DNA from: Asterochloris sp. CNOR1
Taxonomy: Eukaryota > Chlorophyta > Trebouxiophyceae > Trebouxiales > Trebouxiaceae
Direction of reading: 5' to 3'
Assembly: GCA_963969365.1 (NCBI GenBank)
Contig: OZ017747.1
Span: 1 to 64,000 of the forward strand
Length of the DNA: 64,000 nt
The notes below the pieces were generated by a model. It saw only the letters and a program-made list of their open reading frames with translations, was not told where the DNA came from and ran no database searches. Each line of letters opens with the position of its first letter. Within the stretch, counting starts at the first letter, position 1. A program made the translations under genes and the position numbers. Of this stretch, positions 4,450 through 62,800 are shown piece by piece.

Positions 4450-6603
4450 CTACTCCTTGCCTTCATCAAGCAGGCTTGACAGTGATCTTTGGCTTGCCTT
4501 GAAGGAGATGCGCCCATCTCGGTCCAGGTCGGCCTCCTCCATCACAGCACGCATGTCCTCATCGCTGACCTGCAGCAGGGGTGCTAGCAAGCTTGAACAC
4601 CCAGGCACTGCCAGGCAAGGCTACATTTATGCATGGGCACAGGCTGTCCGAGCAATCGTGGTATTCAGGGGAGGCAATACTGGCTATAGTTTGCAACCAC
4701 TGCAGCAGCTCAGGTGCAGCAGTTATTCAACTGCTGCTCTAGAGGATTGACCTGACAGTGGGAACTTGACTGTAGCCTGGCTGTGAGACCATTTTGCCAG
4801 AAGATTTTCTTGATCCTGACTGGGGCCACATGCAGATGCCGAGGAGCACATCTCTATGCGCAGGCAGACAGCTTGCAAGCTGCGCAAGGAGCTTCACTGC
4901 TGCACTGCTGCCAGGGCTCGATGTGTGCCTGCTGTTCAAGGCTGCTGATGGCAGAATCTACTTGCATCAGCAAGCATGCTCCAAGGGTTTGCTGCGAAAA
5001 GGCACCAGAGCAGCGCTGCAGAGCTGCCACATCTGCTCCCTCTGCTGCAGAGAGGTCTGCAATCTCTGAGCAGTGTCAGCTGCCACCCCACCGCCCTACC
5101 TCCCCAACGCCTGGCAGCTTGCCCAGGGTGCTGCGCACCAGATCCAGGTCTGCATGCCCGCTGCCTGAAGGGTCCAGCGCCTTGAAGGCCTCCACAATGT
5201 GGTCCTGTCCCTGGACACAATGACAGGCAGCAGATTGCAGGGCGGCCTGGCCTCAGGTCTGCATGTTTGCTGCCCGCACGACAGCGCCCTGAAGGCCTCC
5301 ACCAAGTATGCCCGCCCCTGGACGCATTGACGTGACTGAGAGGGCTGCACGACTGAGAGGGCTGCACACAGATTCAAAGGGCTTTGCGTAACTGACAGGG
5401 CTGCACACGACTGAGAGGGCTGCTGATCTGATCTGGGTGCCTGCCTGCAGAATCCAGCGCCCTGAAAGCTTCCAGATTACACCAACTGACCGCATCCCGG
5501 CACACAAGGCGGACACAACCTTTGCAGGGACCAAAGGCAGACCTGCAGAGGTGAACAGGCCTCTGCAAGAGTTAGCAAGGACATCCTAAGATGCTGGCAA
5601 GTGGCAGAAGGGAAATCTGCCAACAGGGCTGTGCAAAACCAACCTCTTCCTGCGGTAAGGATCTGCAGGGTTCACAGGAGTCGGGTGGCTTCCAGGGCTG
5701 CAGCCAACAATCAGGGATCCTCCCTCCAGCAGTCAGCACTTGAGAGGTCTGAGGCACGTGGTGCTGCAGGCCACTGCGTTAGCATCATAAGAGACATAGC
5801 CTCTGAGGCTGCCCACTGCTGTATTTATATGAAAAGTTGATGTATGTATGTGCTGTGCGAGAGGCTGAGCTGTGAGGGCAAGCAGGTAGTGCCACGCTGG
5901 CGGTGGCCCGACTCAGACACTCGTGACGAGCAAGAGTCACGTGGAGCCGGGTGCACATTGCTAAGCACTGCAGAGCTCTGCGCCAAGCATTGGTGCACCC
6001 TGGCCATCAAATGTGTGTGGCAAGAGGACTGCGCCCCCGCAGTGAGACTTCCTGCCTTCCGGCCACTGACAGTAAGCAACAGAGCCGTGCCCCTGCACCG
6101 AGCCTTGCTAGCCCCCGGCCAGTCACAGTATGCGGCAGGGTCGTAGTCCCGCAGCTGGTGGCAGTGTGCTGCAGGCTTGTGGCTCTGAAACGAGCTTTGC
6201 TGCCCACCAGCTGGTGACCCCGTGCGGCTGATGTGAGAGCCTTCTTATACCCCAGTCACCTCCAGCGGCGCAGCATTCAGCACTTCCAGGATGAGATCCA
6301 GGGTGACCTCATTGCGGTTGTCCAAGATGGTCCGGAAGTCCCTGGCGCTCAGGTCAGGGAAGAAGAGGCGGGCCAGGCGCAGGACGTCTGGGCGGGGCAC
6401 GCCATGCATGCCTGCAAGGCGGCCATGGCAGCTCAATGCGTGCCCCTCCTGCTGCTTTGATGGCTCTAAGGACTGCATCTGCGCTGCAGTCTCCGTGGTG
6501 TACTCATGCCAGCACAGGGTGCAGCACCTTGAGGGTTCATGATCAACCATGCCCCTTGAACGTCTTCTTGAGTCAGCTTCTGAGGTACCAGGGACTTGGA
6601 CAT
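4450..6603 (-). CDS. Small EF-hand (calmodulin/myosin-light-chain-like) protein
   Basis: Four exons on the minus strand: 6603-6528, 6411-6260, 5210-5100 and 4569-4450. Phases agree and give 152 residues (150 if the alternative acceptor six bases further is used). The N-terminal half (LTQEDVQGAW, FFPDLSARDF) resembles the degenerate first lobe of small EF-hand proteins. The C-terminal half holds two EF-hand-like helices and loops, FKALDPSGSGHADLDL and EADLDRDGRISF. Loop 2 has Asp at positions 1, 3 and 5 and Gly at 6, but neither loop has the usual Glu at position 12 (Leu and Ala instead), so calcium affinity may be weak. Possible roles are a Ca2+ sensor or a myosin/dynein light-chain-like subunit; no specific orthologue is assigned. 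It diverges from NHX across 123 bp. Exon 3 has two decayed copies in the intron upstream of it. Confidence 0.82.
5245..5500 (-). repeat. Two decayed copies of EF-hand exon 3 in the preceding intron
   Basis: Minus-strand translation at about 5312-5250 gives LVEAFRALSCG and at about 5495-5440 gives LEAFRALDSAG. Both match the real exon 3 (IVEAFKALDPSG, 5210-5100). The short flank GTCCAGGG..GGAC also recurs. Loop residues are lost, and spacing to the real exon is about 100 and 280 bp. This is best read as tandem exon duplication followed by decay. Confidence 0.75.
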
Positions 6604-6726
6604 GGCTGGCAGCTGGGACCAGTGAGTGTAAGCAGTGTCACATAGGCATGTCGATGACCTAGCGCTTGCAGGAGCAGCTCATGTGGAGCTGATTTCCATC
6701 ACATCAGAAAATTTTGGTCTGTTGCA
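6604..6726. promoter_or_regulatory. Divergent promoter gap EF-hand / NHX
   Basis: Only 123 bp separate the start codons of the EF-hand gene (6603, minus) and NHX (6727, plus). The gap must contain both 5' UTRs and core promoters unless there are untranslated upstream exons. I see no clear TATA box; this is inference from spacing. Confidence 0.55.
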
Positions 6727-9700
6727 ATGGATCGCCTGGTGGACCGGCTGGTGGAGCAGGCACAGGCCAATGCCAGCTCTAATGCGACAGCACCAAGTGC
6801 TCCGGATCCAACACAGGAGCAGGTGCATGACGATGTGGTAGAAGCAACGAGCTTCAACACAGGTGATTATTGCCTGTGAAAGTACAGAGCACTGAATCTC
6901 GCTTGGAACTACTTCTCTCCTCTGCTTGCGTATCCACAGTATTGAGGAGTCGCACACTGGTCTGCAGGGCTGATGGTCACCATGATGATTTTGTATGCAT
7001 CTCTTGGCCACAAGATCGCTGCCAAGTAAGCAGGGTTCCTTGTCCTTGAAAGACCGCAGCTGGCAATAAGCATCGTGTGGAGTTGACAAACCGCAGCAGG
7101 ACACGCCTGCCTGGTGCTTTTTAGAGGCTCTGCGTCTATGTCTCTGTGGTTCCTCTGCAGGTCAAAGTATGTCGGGGAGGGCAGCGCAGCCTGCATGCTA
7201 GGCCTCTTCACAGGCCTGTGCATTCTCGTCATGCAGAAGTATCTCACAGAGGAGGCTCTGCACCAGGTGTGTGGAATGTCTGCAGTGCACAGTGTGAGCC
7301 CTGCCTAATGCAGAGGCATTCTTGAAAGCCTTTTTATACAAGCGAACAGGATGCCTGTTCCCGAGGCATTTCCAGCTGCCCTTGCAGCATTGTCTGCTCA
7401 AAGCCTGACTGCAAGCTGGGACACAGACTTTCTTCTGCCTGCAGCTCCTGGTGTTCAACCCAGCGGACTTTCTCACGTGAGTCTGGCAGCCTCTTCAAAT
7501 TTGGGCCATGCACAGCGCTATGCAGCTTGCCACGCCTGCAGCCACAGGCTGCTATCCTCCTGCGCAAATTGCAGAGGGCCCTCTGCCTCCAACTTCTGCT
7601 TCTTGGCTGTAGGTACCTGCTGCCTCCCATCATCCTGTACGCAGGCCTGTCAGTCAAGAAGAAACAGTTCTTTCGGAATGTGCTGACCATCAGTGCATTT
7701 GGCGTTCTGGGCACCTACATACAGTTCACCATTATGGCCCTTGTCCTGTTTGGCTTCAGCAAGCTGCCCAATGTCCTAAATTTTGCGGTGAGTGGGTGAC
7801 TATGTACCTGTGAGGAGATTATTGTGGATGGGGAGGACTAGTACTAGTTGTGGGGCTGAATGCAAGTGGTCTGCTGCTGCAGCTGCAGTGCTTGTGTCGG
7901 GCTACCTTCCTGGCGTCTAAAGGCATACCTGCTGCGCACAGGGCACAGCACCCTGTACCCTGCAATGACTGCATCATGCAGATGGTTTTGCGGGAGCAGC
8001 TCAATCAGTATGTAGGCTTTCTGCAGCAGCATAGTTGTTTGGAAGGGAAGCGCAACGCTGCACCATGGCACAAGTGCTCTTTGCAAGTGGCAGCTTGATA
8101 AGTGGCAGCTTGACAAGTGCATTTTGCAAGTGGCAGCTTGAGGCGCCTGTACAGGTCAGAGGTCAACATGAGTCTGCCTGCAGGACTGTTTGGCGCTGGG
8201 GGCCATCTTTGCAGCCACAGATTCGGTCGCCGTGCTGCAAGTGCTGAAACAGGATCGCAACCCGTTGCTGTACAGCCTAGTGTTTGGGGAGGGCGTCATC
8301 AACGATGCCACAGCCGTGGCGCTCCTGCGAGCCGTGCAGGTACGCTGCACTTGTTCATGCTTCAACAACTGTGCTGAGGCCGCATGGCTTTGGTGCACAA
8401 GCCTTGACTTCCCTGAGTTGCTCTACATTGAGTGCTGATACGTCTCAATTGCTCCATCTTGCGCAACATGCTTGCTGGTCAGCACTGAGAGGGGGTGATC
8501 TGCACACCAGAATAGCTTGCAGCACTGATGTCCACCAGATAGGCGGCCGGGATGCTCAGAAAGGTTCTCCCCACATCAATCTCTTACAGGCAGCTGCTGC
8601 TGCTGCACCCAGCTGAAAGGCAGCGCATTGCCCCTGGTCTGTGCGCTCAGCGTCTGTGCCTCATGGTCAAGCCCTTTGGCCGCACCATGCCTTTTGCTCA
8701 TTCTGCAGGCACTGGGCAGTGGTCTGGAGGTGGAGGGCACTGCTGTGGTGGCCATCTTTGGGCGCTTCCTGTATGTCTTTGTGGCCAGCCTGATGGTGGG
8801 CGTTGGCTTTGGCCTGGGCACAGCCATCTTGCTCAAGGTCCTGCGCAGTCACAGCGCGCCACAGGTTAGCCAATGCAGATGCTTAGTGGAAGTCACAGCT
8901 GGCTCCAATGCTGGCTCCAGCTGTGGTCAGCAGTTCCATACTTAAGTTGCCGTGTGGACAGCTGGGCAGGCTGCCCGTGGCAGCTTAGCCTTTGCACAGC
9001 TATGCTACAATGTGGTCTTGCCAACTGCTTTCCTTTGTCCATATCAAAGCTTGCTCTGCCTTTCCCTGCAAAGCGACACTCAGTCAAGCTTCAAACACTG
9101 CAAAGCATGTAGCAATACCGTGTCGCCATGTTTGCTGCTGCCCTTGTGCCAGAACATTCTTGCATTGCCAGAGACACATACAGTGCCCGCCCATGCAGGA
9201 CACTGGTCGTCTCATCTGCCCAACACCACGTGAGACTGGCTCCTCAAGTCCTGAATAACAACAGCCGCTGCAAGGCATTCTGTTCTCTGTCTGCAGGTGT
9301 GTCTGCAACCAGGAAAACATGTTATCATGCAACAAACAACTCACCATCAGGAGGCTGTCAATTCCATGAACCTTGTCTCCTGAACCTGCAGGAGGTGTCC
9401 CTCATTGGCCTGCTGGCCTACCTCTCCTACCTGGCAGGCGACTGGCTTGGCCTGTCAGGCATTGTGGCCCTCTTCTGCTGCGCTGTCACCATCTCCCACT
9501 ACGCGCTGCACAACGTGTCGTCCATGTCGCGGGTGACCACCATCAGCGCTTTCCAGACGCTGAGCTATGTATCAGAGGGGGCCATCTTCATCTATGTAGG
9601 CATGGACACCCTGGACCCCCTTAAGTGGCAGGTAGGCAGCACTTGCCGTTTCCAAACCCACTCAACAGGGTGCAGTCGTGCCTGTGCATGAGCAGTTGTA

Positions 9701-12700
9701 AGCTCAAAGGCAGCCATCTTCATCTAGGTGAGCAGAGACCCTCAAGTGGCTGTTGGACCAGCGTTTGATGTTCAGACCTCTCAGCGGCGGCAGGACACAC
9801 AAGCCAGTATGTTGTCACTCTAAAGTGGCAAGTGGTGTGCACCTCTTCAGTGGCAGGTGGGCTGCAGGGTCATGTTGCTCCATTGCACTTGCTGGAGATG
9901 CAGCTCACAAGTTGTGAGGCAATCTCTGCATGCATCATGAAGCGGCAGCTGAGCATGGTGGCAGGTGAGCAGCAACGCTGATGGGTGGCTGGCCTGTACA
10001 ATGGTGTCTCAGTTGACACAAGTGGTGAGACTGGGAGGGGACGCCAGCACCTCTCAAGGGCAAGACCAGCACTATCTCCCTGGAACCTTGGGCCAAGGTG
10101 GGGCCCTTCCGTGATGCTTGTCAGAATAGGCCTGCATGGCTTGAGGCCCTGCGGCAGGAGCTGGTCATGCCTGTGGCCATTGCATCTTCTCATTGAGAGG
10201 GGGATGAAAGGGACCGCAACACCTGGGGAGTGATGTGCTCATCACTTCACTGAGAGCTGGTTCATCAAGCAGCAGCCTTGATACTGAGGCCCCAGCTGGC
10301 TTCATGAGAGCAGATGCTCCTCAACAGCTATGACCTGAGCCCCTTAGGCATGCATATCTCCTTGACTCTGCTGACCGAGGGTGGCTGACCCATCAGGCCG
10401 CCTCTTTAATTGTTGGCGGAGATGCTCCAAGCCTCTGCATCTCCTGCAATTTTGTGCACATCTACTTGTGCTGACTCGGTGGGCCTTTGCCTGCAGAACA
10501 CATACCTCTTTGAGGCAATGTGGCTATTCTGCGTACTGCTGGTCCTCCTGCTGCTTGGGCGTGCTGCCTTCATCTTCCCCATCAGCTTCTTGCACAACGT
10601 TTGGTCGCGTGAGAAGCTTGGCCTCAAAGAGATGGTGATCATCTGGTAAGGCCCAGAGACTGGGTGCCGAAAATGCTCCCGCCAAGACTGACAAGTATGT
10701 GGTTGTCTGGTCAAGGCTGCTTGGGCTGCTGGGTTTGCAGTGTAAAAGAAAATAGTTTCAGTCTTTTGCACAAGGTTGACTTGATTGGAGCCAGGTGGGC
10801 TGCCCTGGGTTTGTTCTGTTTGGAATGAGCGATGCTGAGCCTTAAAGGTGTCGGTCATCGTTGGGTGAGGCAAGCATACTGTGTCCCAGAGCCACAATTG
10901 TGCCGAGTCTCACATATATAGATGCTAGTTAGCGCTGGCAATTGAGCTGAGCTTGAGCTGGGCTGTTGTTTGAGGCTCAAGGCTACACACAGCCCTGGAG
11001 TGGTTGCTGTGCAGGCTATGCAGCTGGATTGCATGGGGATGAGGTCTGCTGGGCTTAGGCCTGCTACCTGCCAGGCCTGGGGCTGGCTTTTGTAAAGCGG
11101 TGATTTTGCTATGCATGAACTCACGCCCTCTTCCCTCCCACAGGTGCAGCAGCCTCATGCAGGGCCCCTCTACCAGGGCTGTGAAAGCTGCCACCTCATT
11201 CTGCATGGCTGCTCATTGACCAAGGCACCCTGCAGGTACGCTGGCCTGATGCGTGGCGCCATTGCAGTTGCCTTGGTGTACTACTACTTTGACCCGCGGG
11301 GCCAGGCTCAGGACTCCCACCGGGCGACCATCATTGCCACCACTCTGCTGCTGGTGCTGTTCAGCACTGTAGTCTTCAGTGCCGCCACCAAGCCTCTGCT
11401 TGAGTTCATGTTGGGGCCCCAAGGTGAGTGGTGGAAGGCGCCCCCAGCACGACTTGCTTGGCTGTCACCAAGCTCATACAAGAGTGCATGGTAGTTTGTT
11501 GCAAGGAGGTGTGGGCACAAGTGACATTCTTCTGCGGTTGCTGATTCAGCAGCGTTGTCTCCAGCGCCTCTGCAGAGGTCTGGTTCGGTACTGTTCGGGC
11601 TTACCAGCTCAATGCTGGCAGGTTACCTTTGCTCTGACGAGGCGCTGTTGTCACAGTGGTGGCATCCTGAATGGTGAATCATGCCTGCAGATGAGGTTTG
11701 CCCTTGAGGGCAGCATGACTCCACAGTGCCTGCTGTTGTTGCTTCCTCAGATTTCAGCTGGCGGCTTGCCATGACACCTGGACATGGCAAGACCTGCAAG
11801 ACCCCAGAAATAACGCAGCAGTCTCTCAGCTCAGCATCCCCTTGAGACGATGGAAGGCCTGCGCTTGTCAACGGTATGTATGCACTGTGTGCAGGTGTTC
11901 AGCCAGACTCGCCTGCAGATCGTGATGCCCTTGGGTCCCTGGGCAGCGGGCGGATACAATCGCATAAGGACCGCTTCGGCAACGCATTATACACAGTAGT
12001 GAGCTGCTGCACAGTTATCCGCAGATCACTGTTGCTTACTTAGTACAGGATCCACTTGCACACGCGCAGCAAAGAGGAGGGCCATGCATGTATTGCAACG
12101 ATGTGAATCGAGTGCCCACTTACTTGCGAGGTGGAGGGTGAAGGGGAACATCAGCCAGATGCTGCCACCAGAAGGTTGCAGGAGCTCTTGTCTGGTCCAG
12201 ACCTGCCTGCATGTTGCATGAGAGTGAGGCATGCTGCAGGACTGCAAGCATGCTGCTGCAATGTGCAACAGGCATGCAGAGGACGGGGCAGCAGTCTTGG
12301 GTGCACGCTGCACGAGTTTCAACAGGCATGCAAAGAGCAGGGCGGCAGCCTGCAAGTCACAGGTGAGGTTGCGATCAGGATGTCACCATCAGCATGCCGC
12401 TGTTGCGATCTGCAAGTCGACGCATGCAGGCCGCACACAGTCCAGCTCTCTGTAGGTCCAGCACTCGTCAAGCAGTGCCCACAGGGACAGCCTATAGGAG
12501 GCGGCCACCAGCCATGACGTGCCAGCTGCCAACACATACCAAACTCCTCTGTCTGCAGGTGATCTTGGATGCTGGTAACAGACACACAGGAAACATCTGC
12601 CATGCTCTGCTGGTCAGCCCACCAAGTCCACATACCGCCTCTGCAGGTGACCATGGAGCCTGGGGATGAGGTGGCCAACCACCTGGGGCCTGGGGAGCTG

Positions 12701-14705: not shown

Positions 14706-14719
14706 TGAGGTTTAACCGC

Positions 14720-16245: not shown

Positions 16246-16870
16246 TCCTCGCCGCTGCAAATCTACTGCTGACTTTGCAGTGCCTAGCCATGAAGGGCTC
16301 AGAGTGCCAGTCCAGGTGGGGAACGTCCTGCTGATCCCTAGCTTTGGCGGCGTTGACACACCTGCAAGAGCACTCACGAAGTGAATGAAATGGGGCTCCC
16401 ATCCTTGCGCCATTGACGAGGCTGACACATGCAATTGCCTGACCCAGCACTTGCTCGTCCGTTGACATGCCTGTGTTCGCCGTGCCAGCAGAAAGGACTC
16501 AGAGATGATTCCAGCTGTCACGATCGCAAACGCGGCAAACAAGGTAGGGTGTCAGATAGCATCAGCAGGCAGGGAGCCAGATCCAGGGCAGCCAAAGAAG
16601 GGCAGGGCACATTGTTGTATTGAGGACAGACCTGGACACATCAGCCTGAGGAACGCATTAATTAATGCAAAGCAGGGGTTCCTGTCCTCAGCAACTGCCT
16701 GGGGGCCCCATCTGGCCAAATGACCACGAGCCTCACACATGTGACAACCCAGGCTGGGCCAGGTTGGCAGCCATTCCCTGACTGCATCTGCTCCAACTGA
16801 GACCTTCGAGTGGCCGCTGTTGCAGCAATCTTGGAGCCCAATGTCTGCTGTTTGCTGGCAGCACGGGTCC
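16246..16870 (-). pseudogene. Fragment (D') of the ankyrin-like gene and its upstream flank
   Basis: Minus-strand sequence at 16246-16470 matches the N-terminal part of the repeat gene at 19.06-19.88 kb (CRCVNAAKARD here, CRCSKAAKAGD there). The match continues into the upstream flank (16.5-16.8 kb against about 19.9-20.2 kb, e.g. TCAGAT.GCATCAGCA). None of the 27-residue repeats themselves are retained. It abuts B' directly at about 16245, which marks a rearrangement breakpoint. Confidence 0.65.
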
Positions 16871-19058: not shown

Positions 19059-19875
19059 TCATGGGCAGCCATGTTGGCGCAGCCACTTTAGAATGCTGAG
19101 GTTGTTACTTTTAGCAGCTGCACTGCAGGCTCCTGGACTCCACTGACAGCCATGCTGGTGGGCAGACTGCAGCACTGCCATGTGGCCACCTCTGGCTGCA
19201 GCCTCGCACGTGCTTGCGCTCCAGGCACAGCCGTTCTGGTGGGCATACTGCAGCACTGCCAGGTGGCCCCCGTAGGCTGCAGACTCGCACGTGCTCGAGC
19301 TCCAGGCACAGCCGTTCTGGTGGGCATATTGCAGCACTGCCAGGTGGCCCCCTTGTGCTGCAGCCTTGCATGTCCTTTCGCTCCAGGCACAGCCATTCTG
19401 GTGGGCATACTGCAGCACTGCCAGGTGGCCTCCTTCGGCTGCAGCCTCGCACATACTTGCGCTCCAGGCACAGCCATTTCTGGTGGGCATACTGCAGCAC
19501 TGCCAGGTGGCCTCCTTCGGCGGCAGCTGCACAAGTGTTGCCATCCCATTGGCAGCCCTGCTCCTGTGCCCACTGCTGCACAGCCAAGTGGCCTCCTGCT
19601 GCTGCCCCTTCGCATGTGTGTTGGCCTAGAGGAATGTCCTGCTGGCGCAACCACTGCAGCACCTCCAGCTGGCCTCCTCTGGCTGCGGAGAAGCAAGTCT
19701 GCTCACGCAGAAGTTCATCATCAAAATGGTGAGCCCTTGACTGCAGGAACTGCAGATCCCCAGCTTTGGCGGCTTTTGAGCACCTGCAGGCGAAATCCTG
19801 AAGTAAGTTGGAATCCGGTCCCAATTCTGAGGTACTGACAAGGCTACACATGCAACGGCCTGACACAGCACTCAC
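19059..19875 (-). pseudogene. Short-repeat ankyrin-like gene, one frameshift
   Basis: The minus-strand ORF from 19875 opens with a Cys/Ala-rich segment (KAAKAGDLQFLQSRAHHFDD). It then runs through about eight tandem 27-residue (81-bp) units of the form AAAxGGHLAVLQYAHQNGC, ending LKWLRQHGCP at a TGA (19061-19059). This is the short ankyrin-like repeat family abundant in amoebae, algae and large-virus genomes, usually a protein-binding scaffold. One extra T at about 19477-19479 makes one unit 82 bp instead of 81 and shifts the frame in mid-array; everything before and after stays open. That could be a recent lesion, a sequencing error or a polymorphism. Its upstream part is partly copied at 16.25-16.87 kb. 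Confidence 0.72.
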
Positions 19876-33618: not shown

Positions 33619-36600
33619 ATGCAGGCATTAGCGCATCGTCATGTGAAACAAGCAGCAGATGGCCTAGACGCACACAATGCTGCTCAGGCTGAGGCCTTTG
33701 ACCCATTGTCAGCAGCGGACTTCCGTCCTGAGCCTCCTCCCGCTGTGCTCAAGGTGCATCCAAGTCTTCCTCGCCTTCTGCACGCCTCCTAGACTGTGAG
33801 CTTATCCACGCAGCGTGGAAGCAGCAAGCAATTCTCTGACCACAATCTCTGTGGGCTGTGCAGAGGCTGGATTGCATAGCGTCCGCAGCGCCAGGCCTCT
33901 GCAGCACCTCTCGGGTCATGGACGTGGATATGTGCCCTGGCTGCCTCATCCCCCACTTGCAGGCAAGCCTCTGGCGTTGAGGCCTGCCTGCCCAGCAATC
34001 AGGCAACCCCCTGGCTGTACCAGCTGCTTGCCAGCCAGTCCTGCCTGCCCCTGCGCTTGACGTGAATGCCGTGACTGAGTTTGCCCATGCTTCTGGGTGG
34101 TGATGTGCAAGGGCTGCTCAAGGGCACTTGGCTCTGTGCAAGCAGGAGATGCTCCCGTAATATTGCAATGCTGGATCCTGTCATCCGGCGCACAGCAGAA
34201 GCAGCTGCTCTGTGCTGCCTAGTCGTGATGTGAGGGAGATCGTGCACCCTTCAGCAGCCGTCAACCAGTGTCCTGCCTGTGTGTCCAGCGCTGGGACCTC
34301 GTCTAGTAAGCTTAGACAGTCTGGCTTCATGGCACCCATTGCCCTGTGCTGCGTGCAGGCTCTTGGCGTGCAGGATATATTGGCTGTACAGGTCTCTCGC
34401 AGATTGCTGGAAGAGTTTCTCAAGAGGTAGGTTTCAGGGGAATGTGGATGCTTCAGGGGTATGCTTGTCCTGTGTGTACACTGCAAGGTTTGTCTGCTTC
34501 TCAGAGGATGTCTGCTCTGATAAGGTTGGCCTCCTGCTTTGCATTGCTAGCCGGTACTGTGCGTCTACACTAATTCGCTGTGTGTGCAAAGCCTGCGGTG
34601 TTTGTTCATGATCTGGAAGTCCTGCAGTACAAGTGCAGCCTTGCTTGCCACCACACCCAAGCACCGCTCAGCCCGGTTCCGGGCTGCAGGAAATCAGCAA
34701 CGGGCCTCAGCACAAGCGTTGAAGGCGCTGCCAGCTAGACGGCTGCTGTACTTGCCTTACAGGTCTGGGCAGCTGATTGTGGGCTTTGTGCACCAACCTA
34801 TAACCAACTGTTGATTTCTGGCCTTCCCCCAACATGCCCCTGCCGTAGGCATGAGGCTGCTGGTAGAGCACACATCTTGTCGCTGCCATGCAGGGGCCAA
34901 CTTTCATCATCTTGATGTTGGCTGGCCATGGCGCTGCATGCATGCCAGGAGGTCCACTGCTGCCATGTCCACGGCCAGATCAGCAGCAGGCCCTGACATA
35001 AGTTCTGGACATGCTGCCAGCCTGATAGGTGCTCTGCATGCCTCTACAGGTACGGGCGACTCAGCTTGGACAGGGCAGCAGGCAACGAGCGCCAACTCCG
35101 CACGTTCTATGGAATTGTGCAGAACCTGCCGGCCTATCAGGTGAATCTGCCAGCACACTTGAACCCCTCCTTTAATCTTGTCTGGGTTTGCCAGCAGGGC
35201 TAATCAGTGCTGCCAAATTGCAGCCTTGTATCTCCAGAGATGTGCTGGTTATTTCCTGTTGGTTCAGCTCCATGTCATGCTACCCATCCTGTGGCGCTGC
35301 TGCTGTACCTCCCTAATCTGAAAAGAGCTGCCTTAGAGTCCCTATTGACGCTGCATGCTGCTGCCATCATTGGAGTACTGGGGGTCGTTGTCAAGCAATT
35401 GCACATGACCCCAATGCAAGACAGCTGCCTGCAGAGAATTCCTTGAGCGCTGCATGCTGCTGCCATCAAAGGAGTACTGGGTGTCATTCTCCAGCAATTG
35501 CACATGACCCCAATGCAAGGCACCTGCCTGCAGAGGGTCGGTTTGACGCTGCATGCTGCTGCCACCAGCAGTCTGAGAGGCACTGTTTTGTGGCTACCAT
35601 TCCCGGCCTCAGCCCCATGCAGCTGCCGCAGGGACCCTTTGTGGCCATTTGCGCTGGTTGCTACCAGCAGAGCAACCCTTCCCAACCCCTTTGCACCGCA
35701 CAGCTGCAGCAGGGTGTCTGTGACGCTGCATGCTGCTGCCACCAGCAGAGCATCCAGCACCTCTTCCCAGCGCCCTAGCTCGCCCTGTGCTCTCTGCAGC
35801 TGCAGCAGGGGCCAAGTGGTGCTGTGTGCTTGTGCTGCCTTCACATGAGGATCCTCTAAACAGACAAGCACCCCCACTACAATTGCTGCAGGCTCACCCT
35901 GGTTGGCATAGCAGTGCAACCTCTTCCCAGCAGTCTTGCTCACCCCATGCACTCTGCAGCTGCCTGCAGGGGCCCTTTGACGCTGCCTTCTTCAACATTG
36001 TCTTTGGACTTGTTGATGACCAGAGGGACACACTGCTGCACACGGCGCTGCTGCTTAAACCAGGTCTGCTCATGAGAACAGATGTGTGCACTGCCAAGCT
36101 GCCTGGTGTCATGCAAGGTACCTGTATTGCCATCTGCTGCTCATGATGGGACTGTACAGTGCTGCTCATGCAGAGGCAGCCATTGCGAGTTGCTGGCTAG
36201 CACTCTCAGGCTGTGTCATGGCAATTCAGAACAATGCATTGCCACAATAGCCTGCGTGTGATAGGGCTGCCCAGCCCAGGTGCTGCTGCATGGCTAGCTG
36301 CTGGCTGGCCCCAAGCACTGCGCCATGCTTGCGGTCAGCACAGGACAGTGCAGCACGTCAGTGTGCTGCACGAGCAGCCCTAGCCGCCTTTGCCTAGCTC
36401 TAGTTCACTACTGGCACTCACAGTCCTATGCTAGCCCAGCTCAAGCTGCAACTGCTTTGAAACCTCACGCCTGCTTCACCCTTCCTACTTCTAGCTCCCG
36501 CTGCGTTCTGACATACACGTCTACCAAAAACCCTTTGCCAGCATCAGCTCATCTGTGTGCAGGCGGCTATATTGTGTTGGGCAACTGCTTGGGCAGAAAG

Positions 36601-39170
36601 GGCATCTCAGACCTCGAGGCAAAGTACCCAGACCAGGTGGGTGGGCAATCCTGGGTTGGTTTGCAAAGCTCTGTACTAAAGAAGCTGGCCCCTCTCTGAT
36701 GGCTCATTGGCTGCCGTCTGCACAGGGTTCTCCAGTCAGAGAAGGCTGATAGCGCTTGCTGCTGTCGTCTTGCAAGTTTTGGGTCCCTCATGCCTGCCAT
36801 CCATGCCTCTTCAGTTTCCGTGATTCCTCCTATGTGTCTGTGTGCAGCACCTCTCCACAGTCCAGCCCTCTGCCTGTTTGCCTTCAGATTCTTCAGAGTC
36901 TGCACGAACTGCCAGACAGGGCTGTGCTGGAGCAGTTGATCTGGGACCTGCCCCTGCAGCTGGTGGACTGGATTGACGAGGCAGCCCTGTACTGCGCTGT
37001 CCTCCAGGTGGGCTGCTCTTGCTCCCTGCTGATGCACGTGTCTGCTGCATGGTAACTGCAGACTGCGTTCTGCAGACTGCTTGCACGCAGCTCCACGTGG
37101 TGCAGTGGAGCCGTCCTCTTCCTTGCAGCCTCAGCCCACCTGTATCTGCAGAAGCTCAGCAGGCAGCGCATGCCTGCAGCAGGCCTCAGTGTCGCCTGAG
37201 GGGCGCCCTGCTGCCGCTCGGCAAGGACTGGCAGCACTGTGCCCTGCACTGTTGATGATGTGGACAACAGCGCTGTGCAGACTGCTGGGCTCAGGGCTCC
37301 CTGTTCTGCAGTATTCGTCCCCTGCTGCCCTCAAGGCATCCTGTGCTTGCCATCTCACTCAGAGCACAGCAAGCAGCAGATGCCTGCACCATGTGCCTCT
37401 GCGCTGGCAAGTGCTGCGTTGGCGGATGCTGCGGTGGCAGACGCAGCGGTGGCAGACGCAGCATCCTGCCTATCAGCTGACTGCAATGGTTACATCACTG
37501 TTGTGAGCAGGCCACAGCTGGGTGTCCGACCCGTGATCAATAATGTTTCGTCGATGGTGCGCTGATGCTGACACTGCTGCATGCCTGTGCAGGTCCCAGA
37601 GGGGTACGTCTTTTCCAGGACGCCCCTGCGGCTACATGGCAAGGTGACCACTGGGTTCCAGCGGGGCAGCAAGCAGATGGGCTTCCCCACAGCCAACCTG
37701 CCACCGGAGCCCCTGACTGAGGAGCTGGAGGGCCTGCCCAAAGGGGTGTACTTTGGGTGAGCCTGCACCCCGCTCTATGTAGCACCCCACTTCACATGCC
37801 ATGCTGGCCCACTGCCAGTGCTCAGCTTTGGGTGAGCCTGCCTCTTGCTGGGAGCAAGCAGTCTCCTCTCAGGCACACCTTTCTGAGTAGACATGCTGCG
37901 ACCCTGACACAGCTCTGCTTTAGCTGAGCCTGCATCTTTCTGAAAGCGAGCATGGTCCCACAAGGAGCCGTGCTGGCCGCCTCATAGGGCTCTGCGTCGG
38001 GTGAGCCTGCCTTTTGCTGGGGTCAGATATGTTTCACCAAGAACTCTTTCCCTGAGAAGCCATGCTGGCCGCCTCACATGGGCTCTGCCCTGGTTCGCTT
38101 TGCCTCTTGCTGGCAGCAGCCATACTGCTTCCAAGAGGAACCCTCTGAACCGCCACGCTGGTCTGCCACCAGGAGGCTAGTGTGGGTGAGTTTGCCCCTC
38201 CAAGTGCTTGAGGTGACCCCTCAGGGGCAGCCATGCTTGACAAGCGCAGACGCCCTTCTCATCATCATGCAGCATTGTGACGTCGCTGCGCTTATGCAGG
38301 CTCTGGCCCTTGAGAATTGTAAGGAGCACACAGGCATCAGACATGAGACAGTCAAGCGACGCTGCCAGCTGACGTAGAGCCCTGCGCTGCAGGCGGCTTG
38401 CACTGAACCAGGGCGGGTGTGCCAGCCAAGCTTGGTGTCAGTCAATCCTGGCATCACTGAACAGGGGCTCCTGTGCTACAGGTGGGCTGTGCTGAACAGG
38501 CAGAGAAGTGGCATGCCATGCAGTCTCTGTGCTGGTGGTGGGCTGTGCTGAAACGAGGATCCCGTGTGCTGCAGGTGGGCTGTGCTGAACAAGGAGAGGG
38601 GTGGCATGCCACCCAGTGTCTGTGCTGGTGGTGGGCTGCGCTGAAGCAAGGATCCTGTGTGCTGCAGGTGGGCTGTGCTGAACAAGGGGGAGCATGCTGG
38701 CGTGGCGCACAAGATGGTGGTGAACGTTGGGCAGAACCCGACTGTGAACGCACAGGATGCCCCACTGACAGTGGAGGTGCACATCATGCACGATTTTGGG
38801 GCAGACTTCTACGGCGAGCCGGTGCGTGTGGTGGTCACAGGCTTCATCAGGTGGGCATCACTGATTGCATGTGGAGCTGATTTGCACGTGGCCTGCAGCA
38901 GCCATGTGGTCGCACACACGACTGCTGGCGCATGCATCTGTTGCAGACATGCCCAGTGCACACAGCGAGGCAAGGTGCTCATGGTCCAGCAGCTGCCTGG
39001 CAGAGCATAGACGTTTCCTATACACATGCTGCAGGCCAGAGATGAAGTTCACTGGCATTGATGCTCTGATATCCCGCATCAGAACCGACGCTGGCATTGC
39101 CAGAAAGCAGCTTGACCTGCCAATGCACCAGAAGTATGCAAGCGATGGTTGGCTTCTGGATTCTCATTGA
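33619..39170 (+). CDS. Methyltransferase-like domain fused to riboflavin kinase
   Basis: Ten exons, 387 residues in phase: 33619-33753, 33864-33962, 34359-34426, 35050-35140, 35970-36063, 36563-36636, 36888-37007, 37593-37756, 38668-38850, 39035-39170. The C-terminal ~160 residues are a riboflavin kinase (riboflavin + ATP to FMN): GFQRGSKQMGFPTANL, GLPKGVYFGW, MVVNVGQNPTV, HDFGADFYGEPV and the final RIRTDAGIARKQLDLPMHQKY. The first ~225 residues follow a class I SAM methyltransferase layout: AHNAAQAEAFDPLS, then VMDVDMCPGCLIPHLQ where motif I should be, ILAVQVSRRLL for strand 2, GPFDAAFFNIVFG for motif IV, LLKPGGYIVLG. Motif I has lost its GxGxG glycines, so SAM binding is doubtful. The same mRNA appears to encode both parts, since exons 7 and 8 join in phase 0 (AVLQ/VPEGY). 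Intron 2 uses a GC donor (GCAAGC). Confidence 0.85.
35350..35760 (+). repeat. ~100-bp tandem repeats in MT-RFK intron 4, echoing the exon 5 acceptor
   Basis: CTGCATGCTGCTGCCA recurs at about 35351, 35450 and 35549, and again near 35727. The first two units share GCAATTGCACATGACCCCAA. The junction of one unit, CTGCCTGCAGAGGGTCGGTT followed by TGACGCTGC, resembles the true acceptor and exon 5 start at 35962-35985 (CTGCCTGCAGGGGCCCTTTG then ACGCTGCC). The array therefore looks like repeated copies of an intron-exon junction that then decayed. Confidence 0.72.
37820..38200 (+). repeat. Echoes of the exon 8 donor in MT-RFK intron 8
   Basis: The true junction (about 37749-37766) reads TACTTTGG/GTGAGCCTGC. 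Near-copies follow at about 37825 (GCTTTGGGTGAGCCTGCC), 37919 (TTTAGCTGAGCCTGCATC), 37996 (GTCGGGTGAGCCTGCC) and 38182 (TGTGGGTGAGTTTGCC), spaced about 75-95 bp apart or multiples of it. Several retain usable GTGAGC donors. Confidence 0.75.
38478..38682 (+). repeat. 93-bp tandem repeat duplicating the exon 9 acceptor
   Basis: The acceptor and exon start CAGGTGGGCTGTGCTGAA occurs three times with exact 93-bp spacing: acceptor positions 38482, 38575 and 38668. Only the last gives the riboflavin kinase frame. The spacing keeps the reading frame, but entering at 38575 meets a stop before the real exon, so the upstream copies act at most as decoy acceptors. Confidence 0.85.
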
Positions 39171-45700: not shown

Positions 45701-47492
45701 CTGTACTGCCAGCTCGGTGTTCTCACCCCTGGAATGAGGCTCTAAGATGCCAAGTTGCAGAAGCATGTTCATGGAAGTGTCAGTCTCCAGCAAGAGCTGT
45801 GAAGGTTCCCTGTCCCCTGCCTGCAGCAAAACTTCACGGTGTCGTGCTTGCACGGCGACCAGCCTCAGGAGGAGCGTGATGCCATCATGGAGGAGTTCAG
45901 GTGGGTCAGAGCCGCAATGCCAGCCTCTGCTGCAAGTGTGGGCTGGGGGCCAGGGGTAGTGAGCATGCTGCAGGCTCTAGGCACATCATGTGTGGTTTCA
46001 GGTAGGTCAGAGCATCAACGCAACCTTCTGCTGTTGGCCAGGCTGGATGAGGGGTTCATGAAGTGCGACATGGGGCTTTGAAGTCGTGATCACTCAGCCC
46101 ACCATCATGTTTATATAGTGCTGGAAACGCAGCCTGGCAGCTCCTTCAAGACAAGCACAGCTTGCTTGGGGTGTGAATGCTACTCATGTAGACTGTGCCA
46201 GCGGTCATCGTGCTGCACCTGCACAATGCCTCACGCAGCCAAGCACCTTCTGAGACTGTGGTGGCCTGCTCGCAGGTCGTGCAAGTCGCGAGTGCTCGTT
46301 TCTACAGATGTCTGGGCCAGAGGCCTGGACGTGCAGCAGGTGGGCAGTGAAAGCAGTCATCACCTTTTGCTGAGGACACTGCAACCTTGCTTTTCTTTTT
46401 CCTTTCCTGAGCTGCACAGCTGCTGCCAGGCTGTGCCCCTTATCAACGCAGCTGCAGCAACCCTGGGTGAATCTGAGAGCATGCCAGGCTTGGACAGGCA
46501 GCAGGCTTGCCAACAGGCTTGGACTTGGCACTGCCAGGCTGTGATTGGTCTGCAGCAGCACCCCTGACTGTCTGTCTTGCCTGCTGCACAGGTGTCGCTG
46601 GTCATCAACTATGACCTGCCCAACAGTCGTGAGCTGTACATCCACCGCATTGGGCGGTCTGGCAGATTTGGGCGCAAGGTTAGCTTGTGTCCCGGTTGTG
46701 CGTGACTTCAAAGCTGCCTGCATCCCGCACGATGAATTGGGCGCCCTCTGGCATTCCTGCGCATTGTCTTGGGCGCTCTCTGGCGTCTGTGCGCAGTCTG
46801 AGTTCTCTGGCCATGTATAACTCCAAAGCTGCCTGCACTCCTGTGCAATGGAGTGGACATTACAATAGAGTAGGCGCAAGGACAGCCCGAGCACATGCCT
46901 GCCTGCTGACTGGAGCTGCCTGCACCCCTGCATGATGGTTGGGGCTCTCTGGCCGACTGCACTCTGGCAGAGTTGGGCGCAAGGGCACCCCAGAATCTAC
47001 ACCCTGAACCTGCTGCAAGTCCAGCAGCTGGTGCTGGTGCAGCATTCCTGTTGCTGGCACTTTGTGCAATGTGCGAGCTCTCCTGGCCCATGTGCGTCAT
47101 CTGCATGTCTGAACGGTCAGGTCATGGCCTGCACCCTTGCATGCTATCCAGATGATGATGGCACTCCCTGGCCTCCATGCTGGCAGCTTCAGCCAGAACT
47201 GCAGCTGCAGGAGTTTATGCTTTGCTAGCGACGCTCTGCAGCTCATCACCGCCCGCTGCTGCAGGGTGTGGCCATCAACTTCGTCAAATCAGACGACATC
47301 AGAATTCTGCGAGATATTGAGCAGTACTACAGTACTCAGATTGATGAGATGCCAATGAACGTTGCAGACCTGGTGAGTGCAGCAGTGCTGACCTGCCTTG
47401 CGCATGCTGGTTTCTCAGGAGATTGTGCCCAGACTGGTGGCCAGTTGCCCCATACATTGCTGATGCACACTGTTCCTTGCCTGCAGATCTGA
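42776..47492 (+). CDS. EIF4A3: DEAD-box RNA helicase eIF4A-III (exon junction complex core)
   Basis: Nuclear ATP-dependent RNA clamp of the exon junction complex. Ten exons: 42776-43050, 43453-43574, 44493-44713, 44948-45055, 45501-45650, 45827-45900, 46276-46339, 46592-46678, 47265-47372, 47487-47492; 404 residues in phase. Motifs in order: [12 protein letters not shown] (Q motif), [77 protein letters not shown]. The end [20 protein letters not shown] then MNVADLI is diagnostic of eIF4A-III rather than eIF4A-I. The last exon codes only Ile plus stop. With the only AG acceptor available for exon 3, about seven extra residues (IIFASLSA region) follow CIGGKS. Convergent with NAC beta across 277 bp. 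Confidence 0.95.
45995..46025 (+). repeat. Echo of the exon 6 donor in eIF4A-III intron 6
   Basis: The true exon 6 end and donor (about 45893-45920) read GAGTTCAGGTGGGTCAGAGC followed by CGCAATGCC. About 105 bp downstream, 45995-46020 reads GTTTCAGGTAGGTCAGAGCA followed by TCAACGCAACC. Both keep a usable GT donor. Confidence 0.7.
46700..47010 (+). repeat. Echoes of the exon 8 end in eIF4A-III intron 8
   Basis: The exon 8 end TCTGGCAGATTTGGGCGCAA (about 46659-46677) recurs at 46963-46982 as TCTGGCAGAGTTGGGCGCAA. Shorter versions lie at 46735-46760 (TTGGGCGCCCTCTGGCATTC) and 46767-46790. A second shared element, AAAGCTGCCTGCA, occurs at about 46711 and 46824. Confidence 0.72.
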
Positions 47493-50853: not shown

Positions 50854-53800
50854 ATGGCGACTCAGGTCTGATCTGATACCCTCATCTGATACCTCAAAGC
50901 ATTGACTTTGCGTTCATGACATGCTCATAGTAGCCTGGCCTGCTCTGGTCATGCAAGCTTGCCTGGCTGCACGATGATTTGCATCTTGGTGGGTATGGAG
51001 GACTATCTTAAAGAAACTCAACTGGTGAATGCTGTGTGTGACCATGACTTGACTGCACCTTGATGCACAGTTTGATTGACTTGATTCATTTCCTTGCAGA
51101 TCTCTGTGCTGCAGCAGGCTCTGCTCAGCATTTTAGCAAGGAAAGGGCTGCCTGGCAACCCCTTTCCCATCGTGGCCGCCCTGCTGGAGGCTTACACAGA
51201 TCAGAGTGTCCCCTGGAAAGCGACCGATGCCCAGGTACATATGTGCTGCTCACAGCAGCATACCGCATTGCCTGCTGAGTGTCCGACGAGCTTCTGGCCA
51301 GGCATCAGCAGAGACATTGCCCTTCACATGTGGGACCTTGTCAGCTGCAGCTTTGTAAGGAGGGCGCAAGCAGCTCACGGCCGCTGTGGATGGCGTTCCT
51401 GTTGTGCCTCCCTGCCTGCAAGCGATGGACCTGTGCCTCACCCAGTGGCCCATACTGCAGGCCACTTGCCCCATGCAAGCAGCTGCTACAGCATGGACTT
51501 CTGCCTAATCCCTCCCATCCTGCAGGCAACTTGCCCCATGCAAGCAGCTGCCATAGCATGGGCTCTCCTCAGCTCTTGTCAGCAGCCTGCTAGATAGCTC
51601 AAGCTCCTCTTGGCAGCAGTGTGGCCACCACCAGCAAGGCCGCTACAGTGCAGGCAGTCGCGGGTCCTCACTGCTCCACAGCCTGGAATGCAGTGCTCGT
51701 CACAGCGCTCTTAGCAGCTGCAGGGTGGCAGTCTGGACACGCCAAGCTTCGGCGGCCCTCGCTGCCACAGCTCCTCGCTGCAGCAGTTGCACCAGCTTGT
51801 GTTGCAGCAGCAGAGGGTCTCAGACCCAAATGGCGGCGCAGCTGCATGGCTGTGGCCCCACTGGCTGCACAACTCTGGGCCCCTGCTGCAGGTGGCAGCG
51901 TCCCTGGACGGAGGAGGCGTGGTTGAGGTGTTCCCACCGCCCTTTGCTGGCCTGGCACGGCGCAGCGACTTCCCGCACGCCTGGGGCCTGGCCCACGTGC
52001 TGCCCTGCACCAGCTGCACAGGTGCGCCACCTGCCTGCACAGGAGTGGCCCGGCAGCACTTCCACGGCGGCGCCAGCTGCCCCTCACTATAGGTCACGCT
52101 AAATCAGAGCAGCCAGTGGATGGACAATGCCAGCCCCCTAGTCCTCAGCAGCAGTTCTGATCACCAGCTGAGCTGCTCGGCAGTGACATCTGGCAGCACT
52201 GAGCTGCTTGGCACCTCAAGTGGAGCAGAAGTTCTCCTGAGGTCTTGAGGTCGCAGAGGCCTGCACAGTCCACCAACCGGCTGCTCTGTATCAGCTGCGT
52301 AGGGAGAGGCGTCATCTGCACATGTTTGGTCACCCGGGACTCTCTGTGGCTGCTTCGACTGGGCACAACATGCGCAGCGTCAGCCTCAGCTTCCTATTGT
52401 CATCAAGAGATGCACACTGCCAGTCAGCGCTCGGCATAGCCTGTAGCACACCCTGAGATCACAGCTCTTCACCTGTGCTAGCTGAAGCGACGCAGACTGC
52501 CAGGCAGGCTGGGCTCATGGGTCACCTCCCGCGCAGGCATGGACATGATCCGGAGGGTGGTGGCGGCAGACCTGCCCTCAGGGTTCTGGCCCCATGCCCT
52601 GCCCCAGCAAGTTAGTCACGATCTGGTTCTGCAGCAGATGGTGTCACTGCAGGTGAGCTGGTGGACTGCAGGGCCACACTTGGTTCACTTATGTCCTGGG
52701 CAGCTGGTGCTGCAGCAGGTGGAATCCCTGCAGGTGAACTGCCTGCCGGCCATACAGCTACAACCTGTAGCATTGCAGGAGGGTTTATTTGGTCTCGCTG
52801 CCTTAACGGCAGCTGGTGCTGCAGCAGGTGGTATCAATTCCTGAAGGTCAGCTGCCCTGCTGGCCAGGCACCAGGCCTGCAGCAGGTCAGCACGCCGCTG
52901 TGACTCTTCCTGTCAAGTCAGCATCTCATGCTGCAGCACATGGAGCGCTTGGTGGCCATCCATGGTGAGCTGCCCTGCTGGCCATGCAGTGTGCTATGCA
53001 GAGACAGAACGCCACCCCACCTCTCTGTGCCCTGCCAGCAGCGGGTGCTGCAGCAGATGGTGTGCCTCTGGGTGAGCAGCACTGACGGCCATGCAGTGGG
53101 CCTGTAGCAGCCCTAAAGGCCACTCATGGTCCTCTACAGCTGCATTGGAGCCTGCCCTGCCTGGTTGAGCCCCCCTGCCTCCAGGTTGAGGCCACAAAAG
53201 GAGGGCTGTGCAATCTGATGCCTGAATACGGGTGTGTTGAGGAATGCTGTCAAGCAAACCCTGATGAGAGCCAACAGTTTAAACTGCACCGTCCTTTTCC
53301 AGGTGGGCAGGTGACCGCTCAGTGACTGAAGCAGATGCTGAGCCATCTGGGAGAATTGTATGAGCAGGACCATTTGATTACGCTGTGCCATCATGTGCAG
53401 GGCAGGTGCTTGCACTACCAACCCCAGTGGCAGCCCTTCCCGCCCCTGCACCTGCGCTGCGACATGGCGGCAACGGCAGCCACTCTGGACGCAGCGCTGG
53501 TTGCCTTCGGGCGCCAGATTGCGCTGGACGCTGCGGAGCTGGGCCTCAGCGGGAAGCACAGTGTGCAGGAGATTGTGTTGCAGGTCAGCTGCGCTTGGGC
53601 GCTATCGGGCCTCGGATGCCTTGTGAAGGTGGCGCCTGAGATAGCCACTTCCAAGAAGGACTGAAGGCCAGTCGAGTCACTGCATGGCATACTTCTCTGT
53701 ACACTGCAGTTTGCTGCTGAGCAGCTGGGACCAAGTGGGCTTCCCGCAACAGTGAGGCTTTGCCCACTGACACAAGGTGCCTTCTTGTGCCCTTCTGCAG

Positions 53801-59800: not shown

Positions 59801-62800
59801 TGGTCCAGCTGGGTGAGCACCAGGTGGCAAGCAGCCCAAGGTCTTCAAAGGTTGCTCAGCTCTGAGGGCAGCAGCACTCATAGCACGCCACCTTGGCCGC
59901 CACCAGAGCCTCCGTCAGCCGGCAGATCAGCAAGATCTGCACGTCACATGCTCTGCCCACCTGCTAGCCCCCAACAAACTCCGTGGTGTTGGGAATCATG
60001 TTTTCGAAACCACAGGCAGCCCCTGTGATATGCAAGGCTGCATTGATGCAAACAACTGCAGCACCCAGCGGGGCTGCTGCCTCGAGGGTGGACTCCATGA
60101 GCAGTCAGTGCTGCTTGATGTGCAATCTGCCATGCAACTGCTGGGTTCAAAAACAGGCATTCTGCTACAAGCTTGAAGGATCAGTCAGCTGCCGCAATTG
60201 ACGCGATTCTGCTGGGTGTTTAGCTCTCAAGTCCACCTTCTGAGGTAGCTTCCCTGCACAAGGCAGCATCCTGTCATTGCTGCAGGGCAACTACCAGAGC
60301 CACTGAGCTGTGAGGGAGTCAAGGTCATGTACAGTCTGAGCACGGGGTGAGCCTGGCTATGGCTGCTTGCACAGGACCTTCCTGTTGGGCGGCTGTTGCT
60401 GTACACCAGCACAACAACAAACTTGCTGCAGCTGGTGTCGATGTGTGCTGAACGCAATGCTGTCTTTTGAGATGTCTGTCTTGGAGAGTCATGACAGACT
60501 CAGAAAGGCACCCAAGAAAGGCACTGCGCACCATGTTGTGCTCTACTGTTGCAGGCTGCATGAGGCCCTGCAGAGGGTTTATGGACTGCTGAACAGCCTG
60601 CCAGTGCCGCGCAACCCCTACCCTGCAGTGCTGCGGATCATGCGCTGGCATCAGATGGCGGCTGCAGGTCGGCAGGTGGGCTCAGGGCAGAACAGAACGA
60701 GCATAGGGTCATTCTGGCCAATGCCAACGGTGTTGTCGTCAGGTCTGTCAGGCTTGCACAGTAGACTGTGACCATCATTGTGGCAACAGAATGCTACTCA
60801 AGTGGTTTCCACCGTGCCCATCAGCAGTCTCCTGACGCCTGGCCAGGGGAGTAGGCTTTATGGTCTAGCAAGGCGTCAGGGACTGCTGACAAAAGCAGTG
60901 GCACCCTTGAGTAGCCCCTGCTCAAAGATATAGTGAGCAAGGCCGCTGCCAGATGTGTAGGAAGCCATGCTACCTGCAATTTGGGTGTAGGGGTTACCCG
61001 CCTGCTTCAGGAATTGGCCGCAAGGCTGTTGCCGGATGTGCAGGAAGCAAGGTTGAGCATGTCACTGACTCCCGTGTCGCTGCACAGGGGACTCCGAGCC
61101 AGAACAACCTGTCCAGGCTGCCTGGCAGCGACTTCATGTATGCTGCCTCTCCCCAGCAACAGCACAGACAGCCAAGGTTGCCGGGCGGCATGAGGAGGCA
61201 GAGCTCGCTGCAGCCATCAGAGATCGAAATGGACGACGCGCCACAGGTAAGGCAGTGCAGCACAAGTCCTGCTCATCAGGCATGGTACCCTACTCCTGAA
61301 GGTATGCCGAGCCTTTGCCGTTCTGGCCAAGCAACTGCTGGCGGTCCCCACCAGAGCTTCCGTCAGGTGGCCACAGCCAGACGCTTCCGCTGTGCCACCG
61401 CTGTTGCTTGGTGCATCTGAGGCAGTCGCAGTGCTTTGTGCTCACCTCTACGACGGGCTCTGCAGGTGTTTGGGTGCTACTCAGCTGCCCAGTATGTGGA
61501 CTCTGCGCATTGCCAGCACATAGCCAGTCAGTTTCCAAGCCTGCTGACCTCAAAGTCCTGGAAGCAAGGTGCCTATCAGGTCAGCAATGAAGTAGAGAAA
61601 CACGGCACCATCTCAGGGCCATGAGCTTGTTTACAACAAATGCAATTCAGCATGCTGTGAGTACACCTTCATGTCTTCAAGGCCACCGGGCTGCAAGCGC
61701 CCAAGGTTGCTCCAGGCAGGCTCCTGCCCATCTGTACACTGACAGGCTGTGAGGGCAACAGCATGCCCCGGCCGTTAGAGAGCCAGCAGCTTCCTGCTTG
61801 GGTCAAGCTGAGTCGCCAGGACAGGTGTGCTCAACACCATCAGTTCAATGAAACTGCAGGTGGAACGCATTGCCACCCTGCTGGGGGCAGCCTGCCTGGG
61901 GAAGTTACATGCCTGCTCTCAGCAGGACTCTAGAATCAGCAGCAGTGGCACTCAAACCCAAGCACAATACCGTCATCTGCTAGTCAGCGAGGATATCTAC
62001 CTTGTGTCAGGTCAGCAGTCTGCACACCCTGTTTGCTGGAGCAGCTCTCACTGGGTCATTTTCTCAGCTCAGGACTGCCAAGCTAGTCTTGTCCACCGTT
62101 TGAGACAACACCACACCTGCAGAGGTTGTCCTCTGGTCACCTTGAAGCCCAGCATGGGAAGCAGAGCTGCTCTGTTTTGCAGGGCCTGACCAGGCAAAGG
62201 CAGCAGCCATCTTCAGTGCAGCAGCTGTGGCGTGGTGCCAGGCACTGAAAGATGGCACGCACCTCCTGCATCACATGCAGGCGAGTCTCATGTTTTGCAT
62301 CATTCTTGTTCATCAGCACCTGGGAAGCCCTGTTGTGGCATGCATGCGCAGCCCAAGCCATAGAGCGCTGCACAGGCCTTGCAGGCTTGTTGATGTCAAG
62401 GACCTTGGCTGGCTGCCACAGAGCCCATGACCAATGGGTGATTCGCACCCAGTTGAAGTTGACCAAGCTGGACTGCAGGTCTCTGATGACGTCACCATCA
62501 CCTGGATGGAGCTGCTGCACCGCCCTGTTGCAGTTGCCAACGCTCTGAAACGAAGGTGACAGGCCTGCCTCGACAAGTCACACCTATACTTCCAGACGCC
62601 TTGTGGCAGAGAGGTCTCTGCGTCTTGTTTCAGCTGGCAGTAGCCTAGGTTGGCATGCAGCCAATGAGCCAGCTGCACCCGACTGCTGAAAGTTGCATGC
62701 TATAGCATCAGCTTCATGCGGCCCTTGCATGCTGCGTTTTATGCTGCACTGTGACAGGCTTAAAAGAGTGCTCCGTCCCCTGAAGCTGCAGGCTTGCTGA

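Follow-up and report, generated by a model that had tools for sequence, protein, structure and literature searches.

Echoes of exon edges in the introns of an Asterochloris alga probably reflect local tandem duplication that is indifferent to splice sites

The window analyzed here is a stretch of 64,000 nucleotides at the start of contig 2 of Asterochloris sp. CNOR1 (GCA_963969365.1, OZ017747.1, positions 1 to 64,000), a green alga whose assembled genome comprises 56,383,464 bases in 21 contigs. Several genes in the window carry, within their introns, short diverged copies of the edge of a neighboring exon, which we call echoes. An earlier note on this DNA had described such copies at seven exon edges, belonging to an EF-hand gene, NHX, introns 4 and 8 of RFK, two introns of eIF4A-III and a gene at the right edge of the window. 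We could align copies of the gene's own exon at each of these loci, NHX being the weakest case (Table 1). The note had also held that each set of copies matches its own exon rather than those of other genes, and that no dispersed introner or transposon is involved. Both statements stand: in a 7 × 7 matrix of exon edges and introns, own scores were 93–174 and scores with other genes 35–64, so the echoes are not a dispersed element, and controls with mismatched introns (below) give the same answer.

The gene assignments rest partly on protein comparison. The RFK model contains a Flavokinase (riboflavin kinase) domain (E 4.1e-33), and the window's NHX protein shares 97% identity with one encoded in the JGI genome Astpho2. 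The first 520 residues of the model for the right-edge gene matched no Pfam family. In this last gene, the exon end at 52623–52660 is followed by three aligned copies, the set reaching position 53096.

Table 1. Source exons and their echoes at the named loci of the window
Feature	Position	Strand	Basis
EF-hand gene exon, source of acceptor-side echoes	5100..5210	-	gene finder; EF-hand_7 E 8.3e-9 for C-terminal piece of model
Echo of EF-hand exon head and acceptor	5254..5331	-	source 5145-5224, 76% identity, score 182
Second EF-hand echo	5441..5474	-	source 5161-5194, score 104
NHX exon, source	9392..9631	+	gene finder; JGI Astpho2 protein joins exon end directly to next predicted exon
NHX echo of exon end	9704..9742	+	source 9572-9612, score 97
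Second NHX echo, weak: exon end and donor	9842..9866	+	source 9617-9641, score 81
97-bp tandem duplication within RFK intron 4, without confident exon	35321..35567	+	pair alignment
RFK intron 4 echo of acceptor and head of exon 35970-36063	35745..35831	+	other copy 35906-35992, score 163
Weaker RFK intron 4 acceptor echoes	35509-35557, 35618-35641	+	pair alignment
RFK intron 8 array, period 91-93 bp: acceptor and head of exon 38668-38850	38457..38687	+	38457-38594/38548-38687, score 493
eIF4A-III exon, source	45827..45900	+	gene finder; model has DEAD and Helicase_C domains
eIF4A-III echo, exon end and donor (CAG/GTAGGT, / marking the splice site)	45984..46033	+	source 45883-45932, 76% identity, score 118
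eIF4A-III later-intron echo of exon end	46963..46984	+	source 46658-46679, score 99
Right-edge gene exon, source	52537..52652	+	gene finder
Right-edge echo 1	52704..52741	+	84% identity to 52623-52660
Right-edge echo 2	52813..52854	+	79% identity to 52623-52660
Right-edge echo 3	53044..53077	+	source 52625-52658
Possible fourth right-edge echo	52930..52989	+	by eye; only 3' part aligns (52964-52989, score 76)

The main sample of 264 kb combined the window with 100 kb each from contig 1 (C1) and contig 2 (C2), and 40 kb of contig 9 (C9) were held out. A self-trained gene finder with realistic penalties predicted 34 genes and 541 introns in the 264 kb, with the splice consensus CAG/GTGAGC at donors and CTGCAG/G at acceptors. 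For comparison, Astpho2 is described as Asterochloris glomerata, green algal partner in the lichen Cladonia grayi, with a 56-Mb genome whose GC content is 56–62% across 98% of its length; its genes have about 9 introns each, and repeats account for about 5% and intergenic DNA for about 26% of the sequence (PMC6652019).

Exon edges were compared with their own introns using 50-bp probes. The donor probe (−35 to +15) was matched against the next 300 bp of its intron and the acceptor probe covered −15 to +35; the 1% chance level was the 99% level of mismatched introns. A first scan used at most 251 of the 541 introns and a second at most 320, while 428 entered the ratio of exon edge to proximal intron discussed below. 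An above-chance match in its own intron was found for the donor in 17.1% of 251 introns, or 49 of 291 under slightly different inclusion, and for the acceptor in 32 of 297. Other introns gave about 1% and the same introns reversed or complemented 0–2.4%, whereas windows lying entirely within the intron exceeded the level in 5–9% of cases. The focus of the matches on junctions is itself real (donor junction 49/291 versus 26/320 for the window at +50; Fisher P 0.0012), and donors weakly exceed acceptors (P 0.041). In the held-out C9, 10 of 48 donors and 6 of 48 acceptors were above the level. The enrichment of own-junction similarity over mismatched introns thus holds in both samples, and the echoes are a wider phenomenon than the earlier note had claimed, running well beyond the window.

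Local copies are not confined to exon edges. Pairs of similar segments at distances of 15–500 bp were collected with a banded local aligner that uses a drop-off rule. At a score of at least 95, there were 77 such pairs in the window, 46 in C1 and 68 in C2, whereas bands of the same width at 1, 3 and 8 kb held 0–2 in each sample. Within 600 bp, 105 matches were direct and 1 was inverted (blastn score of at least 40). At a score of at least 85, local pairs cover 17,094 of the 165,749 predicted intron bases (10%). We call a pair contiguous if its aligned length is at least 0.8 of the distance between the copies, and spaced if it is under half of that distance. After setting aside the 22 exon–exon pairs among 244, 67% of the 52 isolated intron–intron pairs were contiguous and 15% spaced; simulated tandem duplication gave 66–80% contiguous pairs, or 55–67% in a further series of runs. 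Of the note's proposal that tandem duplication acts genome-wide at splice junctions, one part therefore stands: local, direct and often tandem duplication is widespread.

The other part, that junctions are its target, fares less well. The placement test, which kept 210 of the 244 pairs, revealed no excess of contiguous pairs touching exons over uniform placement: 21 of 71 versus 17.2 expected (P 0.195), 13 of 48 versus 10.3 for isolated pairs and 4 of 17 versus 2.7 for those with an identity of at least 0.82. Nor did the breakpoints of 50 contiguous pairs gather at junctions. Within 5, 8, 12 and 20 bp of a junction lay 6, 9, 14 and 20 of 150 breakpoints, compared with 6.6, 10.0, 15.0 and 23.9 expected. 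The suggestion that CTGCAG/GTGAGC serves as microhomology finds no counterpart at these breakpoints, where CTGCAG occurred 4 times (4.2 expected) and GTRAGY twice (1.4 expected) among the 150. The placement and breakpoint samples are small, and a modest junction preference may exist. Microhomology of a more general kind is weakly indicated. In the 15 contiguous pairs with an identity of at least 0.84, the median breakpoint overlap was 5 bp, against 0 in 179 pairs simulated without microhomology (P 0.022). The overlaps (GCTGC, AGCA, CCTGCA, GCCCAGC, CAGAGCGC and others) have no fixed motif in common, and the longest, of 12, 18 and 47 bp, may represent arrays with three or more copies, which would lengthen overlaps. 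This is weak evidence for short microhomology, as in homology-assisted slippage or end joining in general, rather than for the splice consensus. As a separate observation, CTGCAG is abundant throughout: 938 occurrences in the 264-kb sample, a count that takes in splice acceptors, correspond to 3.55 per kb or about 11 times what base composition alone would predict (0.31).

The copies look neutral. By the pair criterion, 46 of the 541 introns contain an echo of the exon tail. Identity in these 46 echoes is about 0.75 over the final 40 bases of the exon and about 0.6 over the 30 intron bases that follow, the latter value being given without a random baseline; single versus double decay predicts such a difference. 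The donor GT is retained in 26 of the 46, equal to 0.76 squared, the neutral expectation. Across 84 exon-to-noncoding pairs, differences at codon positions 1, 2 and 3 numbered 178/942, 182/929 and 239/930 (0.189, 0.196 and 0.257). The excess at third positions (P 0.0004) is of the kind that silent changes on the exon side would contribute. In 28 of the 84 pairs, an indel falls within the exon part.

We consider it probable that local tandem duplication proceeds without regard to splice sites, and that selection on the exon copy makes echoes of exon edges outlast the others. Short units, mostly of tens of bp to about 300 bp, would be duplicated in tandem throughout the non-coding DNA of this genome. 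Where a unit straddles the boundary of an exon, one of the two resulting edges would remain functional and under selection, while the other would be left in the intron to decay neutrally. In the intron parts, decay would affect both copies and quickly make alignment difficult, but in the exon part only one copy would decay, so that a short exon-edge echo would remain visible, seemingly separate from its source. Exon-edge copies would thus stay recognizable longest, probably because the exon itself is preserved, and splice sites may be duplication hotspots in appearance only. Spaced echoes would then be old tandem units, and young copies would have to be scarce, having been lost or no longer being made. 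The duplications themselves may arise from break repair or slippage.

Simulations, run 25 times over parameter sets of which some were repeated, bear on whether decay suffices. When tandem duplication was uniform, exons were conserved and young copies were few, the simulated fractions were 0.163 at the donor, 0.085–0.114 in the interior and 0.123 at the acceptor; the real values were 0.168, 0.060–0.086 and 0.108. A second set with scarce young copies gave 0.189 at the donor and 0.158 at the acceptor. In such models, slower decay of pairs that involve a conserved exon can produce the donor peak, provided that young copies are scarce.

A number of results weigh against this explanation. If duplication continues at a constant rate, the simulated donor peak disappears (0.117 at the donor versus 0.115 at +50). 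The ratio of donor exon edge to proximal intron is 1.82 in the real data (95% interval 1.29–2.68), compared with 0.90–1.14 at constant rate and 1.01–1.36 with scarce young copies. The fall-off on the exon side is steeper than simulated (0.045 versus 0.092 at −75, and 0.025 versus 0.070 at −100), so real exon parts are shorter than simulated ones. Three parameter sets that reject long exon overlaps do shorten the exon parts, but junction echoes then drop far below the real frequency. Among 56 isolated exon/junction pairs, 30% are contiguous and 54% spaced, against 43–76% and 11–31% in simulations. Real pairs also score lower, 39–42% reaching 120 compared with 52–85% simulated, and it is short, weak alignments that make up the donor excess: when the score is at least 120, the ratio of edge to interior is 0.57 for donors and 1.07 for acceptors. 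Moreover, exons or junctions are involved in 102 of the 210 pairs taken together, versus 48.9 under uniform placement. Since contiguous pairs are placed uniformly, this excess lies in the short, spaced pairs, and under splice-blind duplication it must be ascribed to slower decay. The parameters of the simulations were picked by hand, without fitting. Finally, the gene finder called just 4–6% of the sample intergenic, against the published figure of about 26%, which implies that predicted gene models were merged, that some introns are intergenic and that the short exons include false ones; the intron background probably contains some intergenic DNA.

These discrepancies bear on two other mutational explanations. 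The one proposed in the earlier note, that splice junctions are mutational hotspots where duplication starts at donors and acceptors with the aid of CTGCAG/GTGAGC microhomology, could draw on the donor peak, the elevation of the exon edge over the proximal intron and the excess among all pairs. We regard it as unlikely, because breakpoints of contiguous pairs show no enrichment at junctions or at either motif, because contiguous pairs, including the more alike, are placed uniformly, and because the simulation with scarce young copies yields a peak without any targeting. Alternatively, a second process might operate besides ordinary tandem duplication, in which a short patch of 25–60 bp centered on a splice junction is recopied in direct orientation 60–300 bp away in the same intron. 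The features that the simulations fit poorly, namely short exon parts, spacing and the donor peak, keep such recopying in play as an outside chance. The spaced share of exon/junction pairs is several times that of intron–intron pairs (54% versus 15%), and a test with shorter flanks found almost no homology around the copies (9% and 8% of 89 junction/exon cases above the 95% control). When the flanks were lengthened and the scoring was made milder, however, 23% of 75 spaced junction pairs have homology on at least one side, where 5% is expected by chance and simulated old tandem units give 27–34%; for isolated spaced junction pairs the figures are 19% of 31 versus 22–27%. This homology, about as frequent as in simulated old units, favours old tandem units, though not strongly. 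A further point against local template switching, the candidate mechanism for such patches, is that it might be expected to yield inverted copies too, whereas local copies are almost all direct (105 versus 1).

The remaining explanations have much less to recommend them. That the echoes are functional, as alternative exons or decoy splice sites under selection, is suggested by several that retain a good donor, for example the one at 45984–46033 and the right-edge copies. Retention of GT at the neutral level, nearly equal divergence at codon positions 1 and 2 as compared with 3, frequent indels and a JGI NHX protein that skips the echo make this very improbable. Chance matching from the shared splice consensus and a CTG-rich composition could be imagined given the overabundance of CTGCAG, but it can practically be dismissed in view of the low rates for other, reversed and complemented introns, the nearly empty far bands and the own-versus-other matrix. 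We give equally little credence to an origin of the introns in tandem genomic duplication of exon segments (the AGGT model), the echoes being duplicate halves. In a few pairs an exon end does align with an acceptor, and the tail of exon 1 matches the 3' end of the intron above the 99% control in 9 of 362 cases, as does the head of exon 2 the 5' end of the intron (9/362); yet the tail of exon 1 also matches the head of exon 2 in 8/362, a similarity outside the model's predictions.

Among the matches listed from the open-licence literature (titles and abstract openings), no description of exon-edge echoes was found, but several described systems share features with them. Splice-blind duplication as proposed here looks like the small tandem duplications that arise from break repair in mouse and human cells, of which versions with more and with less junction microhomology are described (PMC8355091, which cites Vaughn and Bennetzen 2014 on rice, PMC4020087). 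Both involve short direct copies adjoining their source; the Asterochloris pairs differ in being mostly diverged and known from sequence, with the age of the events inferred. Intron gain by tandem duplication, as outlined in PMC3443670, likewise duplicates sequence with splice-site-like motifs. It creates an intron with in-register exon–intron similarity at its ends, whereas the in-register comparison in Asterochloris did no better than its control. Tandem and mutually exclusive exons also place a copy of exon sequence in a neighboring intron (PMC9013439, PMC12343006, PMC6071210), but the Asterochloris copies mostly comprise an exon edge rather than a whole exon and lack coding constraint. Introners (PMC9860276) are recurrent in introns genome-wide, as echoes are; they repeat one sequence across genes, while echoes match their own gene.

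If splice-blind duplication with unequal decay is correct, a conserved neighbor can make a uniform mutation process seem targeted, and exon edges then pass for hotspots. The corresponding correction for decay would apply to other searches around exons, whether for duplications, introners or scars of intron gain. A good share of the intron sequence of this alga, of which about 10% is still recognizable, would have been made by local duplication, and duplicated exon edges would supply spare splice sites. Short-patch recopying, if it were true, would account together for the shortness of the exon parts, the apparent spacing and the peak at donors; as a mutation mechanism tied to splice sites, it would differ from the known kinds named above.

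Several other features of the window were recorded. Local pairs are about twice as dense in it as in C1 and C2 (77 in 64 kb versus 46 and 68 in 100 kb each), and its start is telomere-like: the first 415 bases form a (CCTAAAC)n array that we take to be telomere. This array is adjoined by a plus-strand gene model at 577–3753, by eye a putative elongation factor 1-alpha. Three tandem arrays coincide with predicted genes. An 81-bp array at 19066–19686 (about 4.7 copies, 88% matches) lies mostly in the predicted exon 19210–19783 of a minus-strand gene, and a 45-bp array at 25350–25577 (5.1 copies, 95% matches), among the most alike in the window, lies mostly in the predicted exon 25165–25549. A 54-bp array at 43945–44156 falls in an early eIF4A-III intron, where part of it (44042–44139) was called exon, probably falsely. 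The sole inverted pair outside the telomere in a blastn self-comparison of the window at E ≤ 1e-3 is 57766–57822/58359–58415, with 82% identity over 57 bp.

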